Below, piece after piece: positions 13,885 to 32,401 of a DNA stretch of 32,401 nucleotides. Both the position numbers and the translations under genes were made by a program. The DNA comes from Aneurinibacillus thermoaerophilus (lineage in GTDB: Bacteria > Bacillota > Bacilli > Aneurinibacillales > Aneurinibacillaceae). Position 1 is the first letter of the stretch. Each line of letters begins with the position of its first letter. Below the pieces are notes generated by a model. That model was given only the letters and a program-made list of their open reading frames with translations, was not told the origin of the DNA and did not search any database. The DNA lies in contig NZ_FNDE01000037.1 of NCBI RefSeq assembly GCF_900099925.1, positions 3,172 to 35,572 of the forward strand. Reading direction: 5' to 3'.

Positions 13885-15345
13885 ATGGACTGTTTTTTGC
13901 TGTATCCGAATGATAGGCAGCCTGATGCCGCTTTGCTTGTTCAGTGGAAGGGTAAAAGCGGCTCTGTCGTACCTTCCTCTTGCCCAGATATTATATTACA
14001 GTGGGAAGACGCGGGATTGTCGTGCCTAGAAACGTACGCTGTCGTGCTAAATGGACGGGAAGCGCTCCACAATGCTTCACAGCCGGAAACGAAACGAGCG
14101 ATGCTTACGGCGGCAGACATTCCATATATTCATAATGTATCTGCTGCAAAAGAGAAAGATATTTCCGCCACAATCAGGCGTTACATAGCGATCGTGTTTC
14201 AGCAGGAGATAGTGAGCCTGTATCGCTCCTCCGGCCGTAGTCTTTGGCTGAACCATCGCATTCGTGAAGGGGAGGACAAATATCGGGAGATAGAGGTCAA
14301 CCAGAAAATCAGGGAAATCCGGCGTGTTACGCAATACGCGGTACAAAGTGTATATGCACTTGGCCTCGATTTTGCGGCGGTATATTTCGGGGTAGATTTG
14401 CGTGGAAGAATATATGTGCTGGATGTTGCTCCTACTTTTCGTATGACACATACGTTGGCACGCAAGTTTATAGCGTGTGTGGAACGTTTTTGTCAGGGAT
14501 ACGCATGTGATGCAGTCGATATTACGCTTGGTGCTGATGTGGAATTTGTACTGCGGAACGCCGAGGGAAAAGCGGTCATGGCGTCCAGTTACCTTCCGAA
14601 AGAAGGGGTTGTCGGGTGTGACAGGATCTTGTTGAGAAGTGATCTTACTCATAAACATTTGCCTTTGGCTGAAATCCGGCCTGAGCCGGGGGCGGATGCC
14701 AGGGAGCTGTTTCGCAATATATATCACGCTATGATGATAGGTATCCGTAAAATTGGCTCGGAGCAAATTGAGTGGGTGGCAGGCGGGATGCCGCTCTCCG
14801 GCTATCCGATCGGCGGACATGTGCATTTTGGCGGGCTGCCCCCAAATTCGCAATTGCTGCGCGCGCTGGACACGTATCTGGCGCTTCCAGTTTTTATGAT
14901 CGAGAGCTCTCGTTCGCTATTGCGCCGCCCGAAGTATGGGTGTTTGGGAGATATGCGGTTCCAGTTTCATGGAGGTTTTGAGTATCGCACGCTACCAAGC
15001 TGGCTTACGTCTCCGAAGGTGGCGCGCGGCGTGCTGGCATTAAGTCATGTGATTGCGCTGTCATATCGGAAACTGCGCCAATTGCCATTGCTTGATCCGG
15101 AGATGTACCGGGCGTTTTACAACGGCGATCGTGAGGCGCTGGCGCCGCTGCTCCCGTTTCTCTGGAACGATTTACGTCTTCTGGAATCCTACGCAAGATA
15201 TGAATCGTATCTCGAACCGTTCGCGCAGCTTGTACTATCCCGTGTTGAATGGGAAGAGTTTGCTGACATCCGCCCTGTTTGGAAGCTTCCGCCGTTTCAT
15301 CCGGAGTTGACGGCCAGTCGAGCGTACGAGCATAGTGTGTTATAA
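13885..15345 (+). CDS. ATP-grasp-like plus phiEco32-type amidoligase domain protein
   Basis: A 486-residue protein. The N-terminal ~210 residues resemble the C-terminal part of an ATP-grasp/YheC-type domain (IRRVTQYAVQSVYALG, then YVLDVAPTFRMTHTLARKF). The C-terminal ~260 residues match the putative amidoligase family first seen in phage phiEco32 (COOH-NH2 ligase): LGADVEFVLRN, LAEIRPEPGADARELF, SGYPIGGHVHFGG and HGGFEYRTLPSWLTSP. Glutamine-synthetase-like amidoligases join carboxylates to amines; the substrate is unknown. Position between a spore-coat gene and mutS suggests a role in spore envelope peptide modification, which is inference. ATG 13885 follows GGGAAAGGGG. The stop lies 40 bp before the mutS start. 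Confidence 0.8.
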   Translation: MDCFLLYPNDRQPDAALLVQWKGKSGSVVPSSCPDIILQWEDAGLSCLETYAVVLNGREALHNASQPETKRAMLTAADIPYIHNVSAAKEKDISATIRRYIAIVFQQEIVSLYRSSGRSLWLNHRIREGEDKYREIEVNQKIREIRRVTQYAVQSVYALGLDFAAVYFGVDLRGRIYVLDVAPTFRMTHTLARKFIACVERFCQGYACDAVDITLGADVEFVLRNAEGKAVMASSYLPKEGVVGCDRILLRSDLTHKHLPLAEIRPEPGADARELFRNIYHAMMIGIRKIGSEQIEWVAGGMPLSGYPIGGHVHFGGLPPNSQLLRALDTYLALPVFMIESSRSLLRRPKYGCLGDMRFQFHGGFEYRTLPSWLTSPKVARGVLALSHVIALSYRKLRQLPLLDPEMYRAFYNGDREALAPLLPFLWNDLRLLESYARYESYLEPFAQLVLSRVEWEEFADIRPVWKLPPFHPELTASRAYEHSVL

Positions 15346-29246: not shown

Positions 29247-29471
29247 ATGGCAAGGATAGATAAAATCCTCGAAAAAATGAAAAACCGCCCTAACGGAATA
29301 TGGTTCGAGGAAATTGCCATCGTGCTTGAATATTACGGATACATACAAGTGAGAAGCAAAGGGTCTCACCATCACTTCCGAAATCAAGCAGGCGATGTAA
29401 TCACAATCCCAAAGCAAAATCCCGTTAAGGCGGTGTACGTAAAAAACGTACTAAAAAGGATGGGGGAGTGA
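29247..29471 (+). CDS. hicA: HicA-family mRNA interferase toxin
   Basis: A 74-residue HicA: a small dsRBD-like fold with the conserved histidine in VRSKGSHHHFRN and the end VKAVYVKNVLKRMG. HicA toxins cleave mRNA and are neutralised by HicB. ATG 29247 is preceded by AGGAGGTGAAAC. The gene ends 45 bp before hicB with a GGGGAG/CTCCCC hairpin between, perhaps for differential expression. Confidence 0.92.
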   Translation: MARIDKILEKMKNRPNGIWFEEIAIVLEYYGYIQVRSKGSHHHFRNQAGDVITIPKQNPVKAVYVKNVLKRMGE

Positions 29472-29516
29472 CGGCTCCCCTTCCTTCAAAATATATTCTA
29501 TCCTTGTAAAGAATAA

Positions 29517-29870
29517 ATGGCAAATAAAGACGTTTCTTATTACATGAGCTTACCCTATACCATTCAGATTCAACATATAAATGATGAAAGCGGTCAGTAT
29601 TATTATGCGACTGTGCTTGAATTGGATGGTTGTCAAAGTGATGGGCAAACGGTAGAAGAAGCACATAAAAACATTCGGGAAGCAATGGAAGGTTGGTTTG
29701 AGACTAAATTAGAGTTTGGCGACCCAATTCCAGAACCGATAACCGATGATGATTACAGTGGAAAATTCGTCGTGCGTGTTCCTAAAAGTTTACATCGGCA
29801 GTTAGCACAAATGGCAGCAAAAGAAGGAATATCGTTAAATCAATACGTACTTTACAAATTAAGCCGTTAA
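29517..29870 (+). CDS. hicB: HicB-family antitoxin
   Basis: A 117-residue HicB. The N-terminal half has the partial RNase H-like fold (YYYATVLELDGCQSDGQTVE, EEAHKNIREAMEGWFE). The C-terminal ~32 residues form a ribbon-helix-helix DNA-binding domain (VVRVPKSLHRQLAQMAAKEG, ISLNQYVLYKLSR). It would bind HicA and repress the operon at the repeats before hicA. The ribosome binding site is weak (ATG 29517). Confidence 0.92.
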   Translation: MANKDVSYYMSLPYTIQIQHINDESGQYYYATVLELDGCQSDGQTVEEAHKNIREAMEGWFETKLEFGDPIPEPITDDDYSGKFVVRVPKSLHRQLAQMAAKEGISLNQYVLYKLSR

Positions 29871-29924: not shown

Positions 29925-31221
29925 ATGGAAATACGAAAGGTACCTGTCAGCAACATCAATTCAGCGCCGTACAACCCGCGTGTGGATTTACGGCCCGGAG
30001 ATCCGGAATACGAGAAGCTAAAGCGTTCCATTGCGGAGTTTGGATATGTCGAGCCGCTTGTTTGGAACGGAACGTACCGGGAATCTTGTAGACGGCCACC
30101 AGCGATTAAAAATTTTACTGGAACAAGGCCATACGGAAATCGAAGTATCCGTGGTTAACCTGGACGAAGTACGCGAGAAGGCGCTGAACATCGCACTGAA
30201 TAAAATTAGTGGACGATGGGATGAAGAGAAGCTGGCTATCTTGCTCCAGGAGTTGGTTGAGAGTGAAAGTAGTATCGAGCTGACCGGCTTTGATGGTGAG
30301 GAACTGGAAGACCTTATCTCTGCTTTACCTGCTGACACAGAGCCGGGTGAGCCCGTCGTCGATGATGAATATGACGTGCAGGTTGCGCTCGATGCTATCA
30401 AAGAGCCGGAAACAAGGCATGGGGATATATGGCGCTTGGGCAGGCATTTGCTTGTCTGTGGTGATGCTGCACGCTTAGAAGATGTACAGCGTCTTATGCA
30501 GGGTAAAAAAGCAAATCTGGTAGTTACAGACCCGCCGTATAACGTAGCTGTGGAAAGTGATTCAGAACGTCTGGCTGCAGACAGTCGTGATTCTATTTTA
30601 AATGACAACATGTCCGATGAGGATTTTGTTGTGTTCTTAAATCAGATATTTGCAAACTACGCCGCGATCATGAAACCGAACGCGGCGATTTACATTTTTC
30701 ACCCATCTTCTTATCAGCGAGAGTTTGAGAATGCGATGAATGCCGCTGGAATCGTGACCCGTTCACAGTGCATTTGGGTGAAGAACGCGCCGACGTTTGG
30801 CTGAGCGCAGTACCGGTATAAGCATGAGCCAGTGTTTTATGCACACATCAAAGGGAAAGCTCCGGCATGGTATGGCGATCGAAAGCAGACGACAGTGTGG
30901 AAAGCAGGATTGCCTGTCGAAATTCCACAACCAGAAACCGTATGGGAAGTATCGCGTGGCGATGTGACGAAATATGTCCATCCGACACAGAAACCATTGG
31001 ATTTGCTGGCGATTCCGATTGGCAACAGCAGCAAGAAAGGGGATATTGTTGTTGATTTCTTTGGTGGCAGCGGTTCAACGCTGATGACGTGTGAACAGAT
31101 GGGACGTGAATGTCGGACGCTTGAATTGGACCCGGTATTTTGTGATGTGATTAAGCAGCGATTCTATGAAGCAACTGGTATTGAGCCTGTTCTTGTTTCT
31201 CGTATTGATGAAGTGGCATAA
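29925..31221 (+). pseudogene. ParB-domain DNA methyltransferase of phage type, broken
   Basis: Intact it would be ~430 residues: a ParB-like N-terminal domain (MEIRKVPVSNINSAPYNPRV, GHQRLKILLEQGH), then a beta-class N6/N4 methyltransferase with catalytic DPPY (LVVTDPPYNVAVES) before the AdoMet motif (VVDFFGGSGSTLMTCEQMGR). One extra G at 30069-30070 shifts the frame within PLVWNERTGNLVDG, and TGA at 30802-30804 replaces the Trp of NAPTFGW. The rest is colinear. Such enzymes sit just before the terminase in Firmicutes prophages, as here, and protect phage DNA. ATG 29925 follows GGAGGTGG. Confidence 0.88.
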
Positions 31222-31238
31222 CCGTAGAAAAAGCAAAA

Positions 31239-31368
31239 GGAGGACGCTGCGAACGCCCTCCTGACAAGCTGCCGGGTACCCCCGACGAAGGATAGCAGAA
31301 CACCGTGGCCACGGAAGGGAAAGCTGCTATCCTGTTTCCATTTTACATGGAACTCGGGGGTATGTTCA
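31239..31368 (+). ncRNA. Structured leader or packaging-site candidate (three-way junction)
   Basis: After the methyltransferase stop codon comes a hairpin GGAGG/CCTCC (31239-31261), then three nested helices: TACCCCCGA (31277-31285) with TCGGGGGTA (31354-31362), closing; GGATAGCAG (31290-31298) with CTGCTATCC (31324-31332), capped by the palindrome CCGTGGCCACGG (31303-31314); and TTCCA (31336-31340) with TGGAA (31348-31352). The closing strand holds the only purine-rich ribosome binding site (GGGGG) before ATG 31369. It is either an RNA controlling translation or a DNA packaging (cos/pac) site near the terminase. Confidence 0.55.
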
Positions 31369-31605
31369 ATGAAAAATACGAACGAATATTCTTGTTTTGG
31401 TAATAAGGAAAATGTACTGCTGCAGCACGAAATAGAGACGATGGAAAACATTATGGAGTCGAAGTCAAAGTATCGAAAAATCATTCATGCTGGCATTGCA
31501 CGCTGGGTGAAAGACTTTCAGGAAGGCCGGATTGAAATTAAAACGGTGGATGATTTGAAGAAGCTGATTGAAATCGACTTAGATCTCCAGCGAGATGACG
31601 TATAA
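31369..31605 (+). CDS. 78-residue phage protein of unknown function
   Basis: ATG 31369 follows GGGGG inside the structured leader. The protein is charged and helical (NVLLQHEIETMENIMESKSK, then RWVKDFQEGRIEIKTVDDLK) and ends in an acidic stretch. I do not recognise a family. Its place between the methyltransferase and the terminase small subunit is typical for small phage genes. Confidence 0.65.
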   Translation: MKNTNEYSCFGNKENVLLQHEIETMENIMESKSKYRKIIHAGIARWVKDFQEGRIEIKTVDDLKKLIEIDLDLQRDDV

Positions 31606-31650: not shown

Positions 31651-31830
31651 GTGGGACGAGAAAGAAATCCGAATCGCAGAAAAGCATTTGAAATGTGGAA
31701 AGAGAGCAGTGGAACTTTAAGTTTAAAGGACATTGCTGCTGCTTTAGTTTTTGGGAATATATACCGTAATGACAAATATATCGCGGAGATAAAACACCAT
31801 ATTAAGAAATTCAGCGCCTTCTGGTATTGA
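31651..31830 (+). pseudogene. Terminase small subunit, truncated
   Basis: From GTG 31651 (AGGAGG-like ATGGAGGTGGGTGG upstream) the first ~33 residues match phage terminase small subunits of the PBSX type: GRERNPNRRKAFEMWKESSG then SLKDIAAAL, the start of the DNA-binding helix-turn-helix. After ~31749 the similarity ends and an unrelated tail runs to TGA 31828-31830. The remainder and the large subunit are missing, so packaging genes were deleted at this junction. Confidence 0.75.
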
Positions 31831-31893
31831 AATTTTCTTTAGCACCTTTTTCTCTTTGTCATCTAGCAGATATTTAAAACTTAAATTAAGCAT
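31744..31893 (-). CDS. 49-residue minus-strand protein, possibly a truncated gene
   Basis: ATG at 31893 on the minus strand has a perfect AGGAGG ribosome binding site and opens a 49-codon frame (LNLSFKYLLDDKEKKVLKKI, then IPEGAEFLNMVFYLRD) ending TAA at 31744-31746, precisely where terminase homology begins on the other strand. It is thus probably the N-terminal part of a gene cut by the same deletion. Family not recognised. Confidence 0.5.
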   Translation of the reverse strand: MLNLSFKYLLDDKEKKVLKKISIPEGAEFLNMVFYLRDIFVITVYIPKN

Positions 31894-32134
31894 ATATTAT
31901 CCTCCTAATAAAATATATGGCTACCTTCTTTTGCGCTCCATTTTATACAATTCTTATTGACTTTGCTGGCAAATCCCAAATGTTATATCTTTTTATGTTG
32001 TGCATAATAAAATAACTGTAGTTGCCCAAAAACACTTACACAAATTTAAAATTGAATAGAAAAGAGACATATCTCTTCACCCTGTGTAAAAATAGAAGTA
32101 CCACCAACCACTTTTACGCAAAGGAGAAGACTAT
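31894..32134. other. Boundary region before the IS element
   Basis: AT-rich DNA without a gene. The left end of the insertion sequence probably lies near 32020-32050, but only one end is in the window so the terminal inverted repeat cannot be defined. Confidence 0.35.
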
Positions 32135-32401
32135 ATGCCTCTTACGTATAGGGTAGCACATCAACAGGAAATCAACAATATTTTACGTACCTGGCGTTTC
32201 CCACTTTATTTTTCTAAGCCGGTAATGAACCATATGGTTCATTTTCTCGATGGTGTGATGACCAGAGGTTTTTCTGGAACGTTAACCGATATCCATCGTG
32301 AAAGCTGCCATTCACAAGACCGACGGACACTGAGCCATTTTCTTACTCATGGGAAGTGGAATGAGCAGCATTTGATGCGTATAATTCAGCAACAATCATG
32401 G
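32135..32401 (+). mobile_element. IS701/IS4-like DDE transposase, 5' part (continues beyond window)
   Basis: ATG 32135 follows AAGGAGA. The 89 visible residues have the N-terminal pattern of IS701-type transposases (FSKPVMNHMVHFLDGVMTRG, then RRTLSHFLTHGKWNEQHL). The catalytic DDE residues would lie beyond the window end. It marks another insertion into the decayed phage region. Confidence 0.75.

Follow-up and report, generated by a model that had tools for sequence, protein, structure and literature searches.

The element studied here lies near the end of the window, by which we mean the whole stretch of 32,401 nucleotides that was analysed (positions 3172-35572 of a contig of 35572 bases). 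It sits in a prophage remnant, where the order is methyltransferase, element, phrog_1476 and truncated terminase small subunit (TerS). The genes concerned are the following:

30031-31221, + strand: phage DNA methyltransferase upstream of the element, split over two ORFs
31369-31605, + strand: 78-aa ORF of the family phrog_1476 (function not assigned; E 1.6e-28)
31651-31830, + strand: terminase small subunit, truncated (PF10668, first 32 residues match)

The two methyltransferase ORFs share one frame with a stop codon at 30802-30804 between them. In the stretch 31651-32401, TerS ends after about 32 matching residues and is followed by an ORF (32135-32401) without Pfam match, transposase-like by eye, that is still open at the window end, where the contig stops. 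Given the prophage remnant and the truncated TerS, the window's own copy of the element may no longer work. Directly before the remnant, a pair of HicA toxin (PF07927) and HicB antitoxin (PF05534) genes occupies 29247-29870. Elsewhere in the window (13885-15345), a 486-aa protein matching the phage phiEco32-like COOH.NH2 ligase-type 2 family (PF14395, E 8.7e-94) is an odd neighbour of mutS and mutL, just upstream of which it lies. In some phages (2820-2870 in locus L019, also L018, L007 and others), extra genes and terminator-like hairpins are found between methyltransferase and element; by eye these genes are NUDIX-like and peptide deformylase-like, and one has no family match. With such extra genes, the junction looks like a spot for cargo insertion.

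A first-pass annotation had described separate complementarities before the phrog_1476 gene that nest into a three-way junction, one arm being capped by a 12-bp palindrome, and a check of the sequence found them all. TACCCCCGA (31277-31285) is complementary to TCGGGGGTA (31354-31362), giving the closing helix P1, and GGATAGCAG (31290-31298) is complementary to CTGCTATCC (31324-31332). It had also placed the GGGGG before ATG 31369 inside the 9-bp closing helix and suspected more structure than expected by chance, and both points hold for the + strand: its minimum free energy (MFE) fold is a three-way junction covering this ribosome binding site (RBS), at -49.8 kcal/mol with a z-score of -2.85, and was equalled by 3 of 200 shuffles. 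Overlooked in that first reading were a 5' hairpin (31239-31261) and, on the opposite strand, a promoter and a terminator. The features, predicted by folding, by pattern scans or by comparison of copies, are:

31277-31285, + strand: 5' strand of P1 (anti-RBS strand) of the mRNA leader; both sides changed in 11 of 12 pairs
31354-31362, + strand: 3' strand of P1, containing the RBS GGGGG (leader folds)
31336-31352, + strand: third arm P3 (TTCCAT/ATGGAA), 31336-31341 with 31347-31352; both sides changed in 3 of 4 pairs
31232-31333, - strand: predicted antisense sRNA (about 102 nt) that begins shortly ahead of the SL1 stem and runs to the T-tract (comparison of copies)
31364-31369, - strand: putative -35 box TTGAAC, extending over the A of the start codon (pattern scan)
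31340-31345, - strand: putative -10 box TAAAAT, identical with the loop of the third arm; spacer of 18 with TTGAAC
31289-31333, - strand: SL1, a 9-bp arm (10 bp with the next pair) that also forms on the + strand
31303-31314: perfect palindrome of 12 bp, CCGTGGCCACGG, within the loop of SL1; a proposed site of dimerisation or kissing, without mismatch in any of the 72 rows of alignment A4
31271-31286, - strand: SL2 hairpin, 31271-31276 with 31281-31286; at least 4 bp in the MFE fold of 71 of 71 copies
31238-31262, - strand: SL3, predicted intrinsic terminator, equivalent to the 5' hairpin (31239-31261) (pattern scan, G-U asymmetry)
31229-31238, - strand: T-tract of the predicted terminator (comparison of copies)

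Alignment A4 holds 72 rows (71 distinct) from 72 of 73 sources, L088 having fallen below the E limit. The 73 sources were hand-picked for diversity from 112 searched with R1; excluded were duplicates, numerous close relatives and, as decayed copies, L002, L086, L119 (two) and L120. All counts over the 71 copies are to be read as non-independent, the copies being related to each other. The pairings proposed in the first-pass annotation were borne out by this comparison: of 38 base pairs, 33 have changed on both sides, and the share of paired cells is 88.3%, as opposed to 40-48% once partners are offset by 1-3 columns. On five measures, not one was reached by a single shuffle out of 500; relatedness alone can beat shuffles, and the column offsets are the firmer control. 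By eye, pairing and palindrome are lost in L002 and in two copies of L119, and the damaged copies L120, L119 and L086 carry no 12-bp palindrome. The copy in L002 (1501-1620, contig G000:C87) is a decayed second element in the window's own genome, with broken palindrome and stems, and is fused to an apparent phrog_1476 fragment. The two decayed elements of L119 (4814-4947 and 6745-6874) lie about 1.9 kb apart on one contig of a Paenibacillus MAG.

The structure beyond the closing helix is best read as a putative antisense sRNA of about 102 nt on the - strand. Positions 31230-31333 of this strand fold with a z-score of -3.84 to -3.85, which none of 200 shuffles matched, and model R2 matches the window at 73.7 bits (R2 includes the window among its sequences). 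For this span, MFE averages -50.3 on the - strand and -39.9 on the + strand and is lower on the - strand in 68 of the 71 copies; SL1, SL2 and SL3 are all present in the - strand MFE fold of every one of the 71. In A5, the - strand alignment comprising 46 of the 71 distinct rows, 99.6% of cells pair in SL1, 90.4% in SL2 and 98.4% in SL3, and both sides have changed in 8 of 10 SL1 pairs. The 5' hairpin distinguishes the strands: read on the + strand, its cells in the 71 copies comprise 528 Watson-Crick, 38 A-C and 1 G-T combinations, the A-C and G-T cells being spread over 36 copies. Since A-C on the + strand is G-U on the - strand, the hairpin is better on the latter, and G-U is seen in 7 of its 8 pairs in A5. 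Likewise, at least four T among the first six nucleotides past the hairpin are found on the - strand in 70 of 71 copies (the exception is L078) and on the + strand in 2 of 71.

The predicted promoter follows the same pattern. Its mean score on the - strand is 8.5 of 12 matches versus 4.4 in single-letter shuffles of the same regions; 55% of copies versus 2.3% of shuffles reach a score of at least 9, and 70 of 71 copies a score of at least 7. The spacer is 17 in 54 copies and 18 in 16, and the -35 box starts with TTG in 56 of 71. Taken by itself, the pattern scan of the window has little meaning, with 3 promoter matches versus 2.0 expected. In L016 and L050 the ATG is replaced, yet the CAAT that gives the TTG of the -35 box is kept. 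The sole copy without the promoter, L113, has also lost arm 3 and carries a stop codon inside phrog_1476. The 5' end of the sRNA would lie about 36 nt before ATG 31369 on the opposite strand, which makes it complementary to the 5' region of the mRNA. Of the traits that define a cis-encoded antisense sRNA, three are found here at the level of sequence, namely a predicted promoter and a predicted terminator of its own and complementarity to the 5' region of the neighbouring mRNA. The main texts of E. faecalis RNA-mapping studies, queried with few guessed gene numbers and words, yielded nothing on this locus.

Comparison supports a different assignment for P1, which hides the phrog_1476 RBS and belongs to the + strand mRNA. 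P1 joins the SL2 region to the promoter spacer, and the sRNA alone can therefore not explain it. Native pairs of P1 strands have a mean energy of -19.1 versus -14.8 kcal/mol for chimeric ones (54 distinct pairs). Read on the + strand, the cells of P1 comprise 42 G-T versus 15 A-C, and its duplex is stronger on this strand in 57 of 71 copies and weaker in 13; a further 143 P1 cells in A4 fall outside the standard, G-T and A-C classes, the unpaired ones being mostly those of the four outer pairs. The MFE fold of the full leader contains P1 in 70 of 71 copies and has at least three of four RBS bases paired in all 71. The probability of the RBS being unpaired rises from 0.16 in the whole leader to 0.46 when the sRNA-covered part is removed, and is raised in 66 of 71 copies. 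The earlier suggestion of a phage regulatory RNA therefore survives for the conserved structure that hides an RBS before packaging genes, but most of the structure is better read as an opposite-strand sRNA. The accompanying suggestion of a riboswitch-like leader found no backing: Rfam release 15 gave no match for the window at the gathering threshold, for 31150-31450 at E ≤ 5 or for eight diverse loci at E ≤ 1, and nothing was found that points to a ligand.

The phrog_1476 gene and the predicted sRNA co-occur almost one to one. Among viral contigs, the 78-aa protein has 60 relatives, and an element with a perfect 12-bp palindrome lies directly upstream in 58 of 58 (51 distinct), L003 and L010 being excluded because their contigs begin inside the element. 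In genome contigs, R1 matches at 26 of 27 gene loci and is missing at L121, a short gene match; these 27 loci come from records named Paenibacillus, Brevibacillus, Cohnella, Siminovitchia, Sutcliffiella, Cytobacillus, Oceanobacillus and a Selenomonadales MAG. Across 398 genomes of the class, phrog_1476 occurs at 32 places in 24 genomes and R2 (E < 1e-8) at 29 places in 21. By coordinates, 27 of these 29 strong matches adjoin phrog_1476. An insertion, IS-like by eye, separates the two in G393, and G311 holds an sRNA remnant, its terminator hairpin missing by eye, in a genome without phrog_1476. Weak sRNA matches are also present in G119 and G376. Viewed from the gene, a strong sRNA match is present at 28 of 32 places and a weak one (2.5e-4) at one (G153, locus L088); places without sRNA match are G033, where the domain is inside a TerS-like protein, and G293 and G168, which are short matches. 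A sample spanning the phylum had phrog_1476 in just 4 of 398 genomes, and these 4 belong to the same class as the window.

Six records of a phage collection, found via the protein and not part of the R2 training, have R2 matches on the - strand upstream of a phrog_1476 relative: Parageobacillus phage JGon-2020a (1.4e-11), Listeria phages PSU-VKH-LP041 (1.7e-11) and B054 (9.9e-13), Latilactobacillus phage TMW 1.2272 P1 (3.1e-11) and Enterococcus phages phiFL3A (4.2e-9) and phiEf11 (9.6e-9), the E-values being for about 9.5 kb per search with filters off. In all six, the promoter scores 9 to 11 of 12 and the palindrome measures 10, 12 or 14 bp. By blastn, the window region matched phages in the methyltransferase only, and neither the elements of L046 and L019 against phages nor that of L019 against plasmids gave a match. 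Weak R1 matches (below about 30 bits) in G001:C179 and G002 were dismissed as single terminator hairpins by eye.

The SL1 loop evolves quickly and nearly always keeps its self-complementarity. All 72 rows of A4 carry a self-complementary palindrome, in 10 different sequences; with the six phage-collection records there are 16 distinct palindromes of 10-14 nt, the 10-bp palindromes of phiEf11 and phiFL3A being the cores of GCCACGCGTGGC and CCACGCGCGTGG in A4. On a tree built without the loop, the minimum number of changes is 20 for the palindrome type, 6 for the centre tetramer and 3 for the centre dinucleotide, each change leading to another self-complementary sequence; these counts are approximate as the tree has some long branches. 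Adjacent bases cannot pair within one molecule, so that a hairpin does not explain the palindrome centre, and RNA-RNA dimerisation can account for the paired switching of the centre dinucleotide. The computed homodimer gain is -19.0 kcal/mol versus -10.9 with scrambled palindromes. In fixed columns, the outer four palindrome pairs form in 71.7% (A4) and 65.2% (A5) of cells, figures that are low because the offset of the palindrome in the loop varies (3 to 6); a 4-bp hairpin also fits these outer letters.

Two pairs of close relatives illustrate this turnover. L034 and L046 are 94% identical over 5.4 kb, and their elements are identical outside the SL1 tip, where the palindromes differ (CCGAGCGCTCGG and CTGCGGCCGCAG). 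Their ParB-like/methyltransferase proteins are 96.3% identical, TerS (phrog_1889) 98.1% and the terminase large subunit (TerL) 98.5%, and phrog_1476 agrees in 74 of 77 residues. With proteins this similar and palindromes that differ, a neighbouring protein is evidently not what fixes the palindrome letters. The pattern recurs in Listeria phages B054 and PSU-VKH-LP041 (ACCACGCGTGGT and ACCTCGCGAGGT), with the element differences mostly in the SL1 tip. As to a target elsewhere, GCCACGCGTGGC occurs at one place per record in 13 of 13 phage records chosen for carrying it, and no second palindrome copy was found in these records or in the window's genome. Moreover, prophages of one genome share palindromes (L070, L092 and L152 in G249; L082, L153 and L154 in G231), which does not support a strict incompatibility of co-resident prophages. 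The distant copy L088 (1501-1622), also upstream of phrog_1476, has kept its hairpins by eye and has a small SL1 loop without palindrome.

The phrog_1476 protein is predicted to consist of one long helix and a shorter one (mean pLDDT 79.3). A fold search with this model gave nothing significant, and a PDB sequence search nothing below E 0.29. In G033 (L143, 1360-1797), a phrog_1476-like domain stands behind a helix-turn-helix-like part in a 145-aa protein encoded directly before TerL. This protein has a weak match to one TerS family (E 0.0012), and its locus has no R2 match. A TerS-like role for phrog_1476 is plausible given the domain's presence in this TerS-like protein.

Taken together, we consider it moderately probable that the locus encodes an antisense sRNA controlling the first gene of the packaging operon of temperate Bacillota phages. 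On the - strand, as comparison supports, a sigma-A-like promoter overlapping the phrog_1476 start codon would start the sRNA of about 102 nt, which would fold into SL1 with its palindromic loop, SL2 and SL3 and stop at SL3. On the + strand, again supported by comparison, the mRNA of the packaging operon would fold such that P1 hides the phrog_1476 RBS. The sRNA might meet this mRNA through the SL1 loop, and, because that loop is palindromic, like RNA molecules may pair through it too. In this way the sRNA could set the amount of phrog_1476 and perhaps also of TerS. The direction of control is more tentative. The sRNA covers the anti-RBS strand of P1, and full pairing would thus free the RBS, which would favour unlocking over blocking; we regard unlocking as possible though doubtful. 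P1 would have to be opened, and RNase III decay or polymerase collision could still make the sRNA a repressor. Further, the palindromic loop counts against antisense control, since an sRNA that can pair with itself is unusual for an antisense regulator.

The same palindrome invites the reading that the sRNA is a homodimeric RNA acting in trans, on the phage, on the host or together with the phrog_1476 protein, with its antisense position being secondary. The retention of self-complementarity through all type changes and centre switches, the computed gain from dimerisation and the tie of the sRNA to one gene would agree with this. However, covariation of P1 with the promoter spacer requires the mRNA strand too, and among the 29 strong matches in the 398 genomes only the remnant in G311 has no phrog_1476 in its genome, and we judge an action in trans unlikely. 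It is likewise rather improbable that the + strand leader alone is functional, its three-way junction hiding the RBS and a transient upstream hairpin delaying the folding, as in the maturation leader of MS2, in which the RBS is hidden by long-range pairing. In transcripts cut before the 3' strand of P1, the upstream hairpin is indeed in the MFE fold of 67 of 71 copies as against 4 in the full leader, where P1 dominates, and P1 covaries on the + strand. As a switch partner on the + strand, this hairpin was our first reading until the strand test reassigned it to the sRNA: at one position it has G-U on the - strand in 22 of 46 rows, the 5' hairpin as a whole is better on that strand, and a functional leader leaves the promoter and T-tract of the - strand unexplained. 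SL2 read on the + strand shows a modest gain (-6.3 versus -5.7 for chimeras), and 237 of 1440 shuffled linkers fold equally well.

Two further explanations place the function of the palindrome between phages or in their DNA. If the prophage sRNA served immunity or superinfection exclusion by blocking the packaging operon of a related incoming phage, the loop would diversify to escape, in line with the replaced SL1 tips of closely related phages, and antisense exclusion and heteroimmunity have precedents among those treated in PMC12197685. We consider this very improbable, as prophages of one genome share palindromes and blocking would be required of an sRNA that, fully paired, frees the RBS. 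The least credible reading is the DNA packaging site, already entertained in the first-pass annotation, in which the palindrome inside inverted repeats would be a cosN or pac site cut or bound by terminase. The element adjoins terS, has perfect dyad symmetry and carries its 12-mer at one place in each of the 13 chosen phage records. Against this, the palindromes of L034 and L046 differ next to almost identical TerS and TerL, and the records of B054 and PSU-VKH-LP041 have their ends at distances of about 560 and 650 bases, past the next two ORFs, these ends being those of sequence records. Carrier TerL are diverse as well, with best matches to phrog_5902 (L019, L008) or phrog_2 (L011, L034) and with Pfam Terminase_3 in L085, Terminase_6N in L034 and none in L011, a diversity tempered by all four TerL scanned with PHROGs also matching phrog_2. 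Palindromic overhangs would also let like DNA ends join.

Going beyond antisense control, a homodimeric sRNA and a TerS-like phrog_1476 might form an RNA-protein part of terminase-type motors in Bacillota phages, with the palindromic loop as a fast-diversifying tag for self-recognition by which RNAs pair with those of the same phage but not with those of others, an idea we mention as highly unlikely. Should the favoured antisense control be true, the packaging operon is governed in a broad range of phages by a small RNA that is absent from Rfam. Hosts are named in the records as Paenibacillus, Brevibacillus, Cohnella and several Bacillus-like genera, and the range extends to Listeria, Enterococcus, Latilactobacillus and Parageobacillus phages. 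Elements that are identical save for a self-complementary loop tip are a rare natural experiment and make RNA-RNA self-recognition directly testable, also with the described phages B054, phiEf11 and phiFL3A. Moreover, phrog_1476, a family without assigned function, gains a context.

An antisense RNA at a terminase operon was not found in the literature as far as titles and abstract openings reveal, subscription papers being mostly outside this coverage. Phage cis-antisense sRNAs as such are well represented in PMC12197685, with OOP and aQ of lambda, sar and sas of P22, c4 of P1/P7 and STnc6030 of BTP1. Like the RNA predicted here, these are encoded by a phage and antisense to phage mRNA, c4 acting near an RBS and STnc6030 on the tailspike gene (PMC12197685). 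However, the main text of PMC12197685 places none of them at a terminase operon (the word terminase is absent from it), nor does that source describe a hypervariable palindromic loop or a self-locking leader for them. The cabRNA of staphylococcal phages is a structured phage RNA from the terminase region, yet measures about 400 nt in two phages and less than 50 nt in others and is transcribed from within terS and terL (PMC10686824). We rejected it as the identity of the element because size and origin differ and, going by the same source, no sequence is common to the phage groups (PMC10686824).

Other likenesses concern single traits. The MS2 maturation leader is a very stable, cloverleaf-like leader in which a transient structure permits translation before the cloverleaf forms (PMC6733600). 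MS2 is, however, an RNA phage, whereas the leader region studied here would encode an antisense RNA as well. The pRNA of phi29, likewise a phage RNA, pairs between molecules through loops and is tied to DNA packaging (PMC7357161), traits that the present sRNA may share. It uses two different complementary loops and forms rings with motor proteins (PMC7357161), whereas the one palindrome of the present sRNA would allow dimers, in other phages with a terminase-type motor. OLE and GOLLD are far longer RNAs with Rfam profiles, OLE forming a dimer and GOLLD a cage of 14 chains (PMC12286853), in contrast to the RNA predicted here, which would measure about 100 nt, has a single palindrome and matches nothing in Rfam. 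Their likeness to it lies in paired switching of the tetra- or dinucleotides at the palindrome centre, like GGCC, GCGC and CGCG here, and for OLE and GOLLD this paired switching has been taken as support for intermolecular pairing (PMC12286853).
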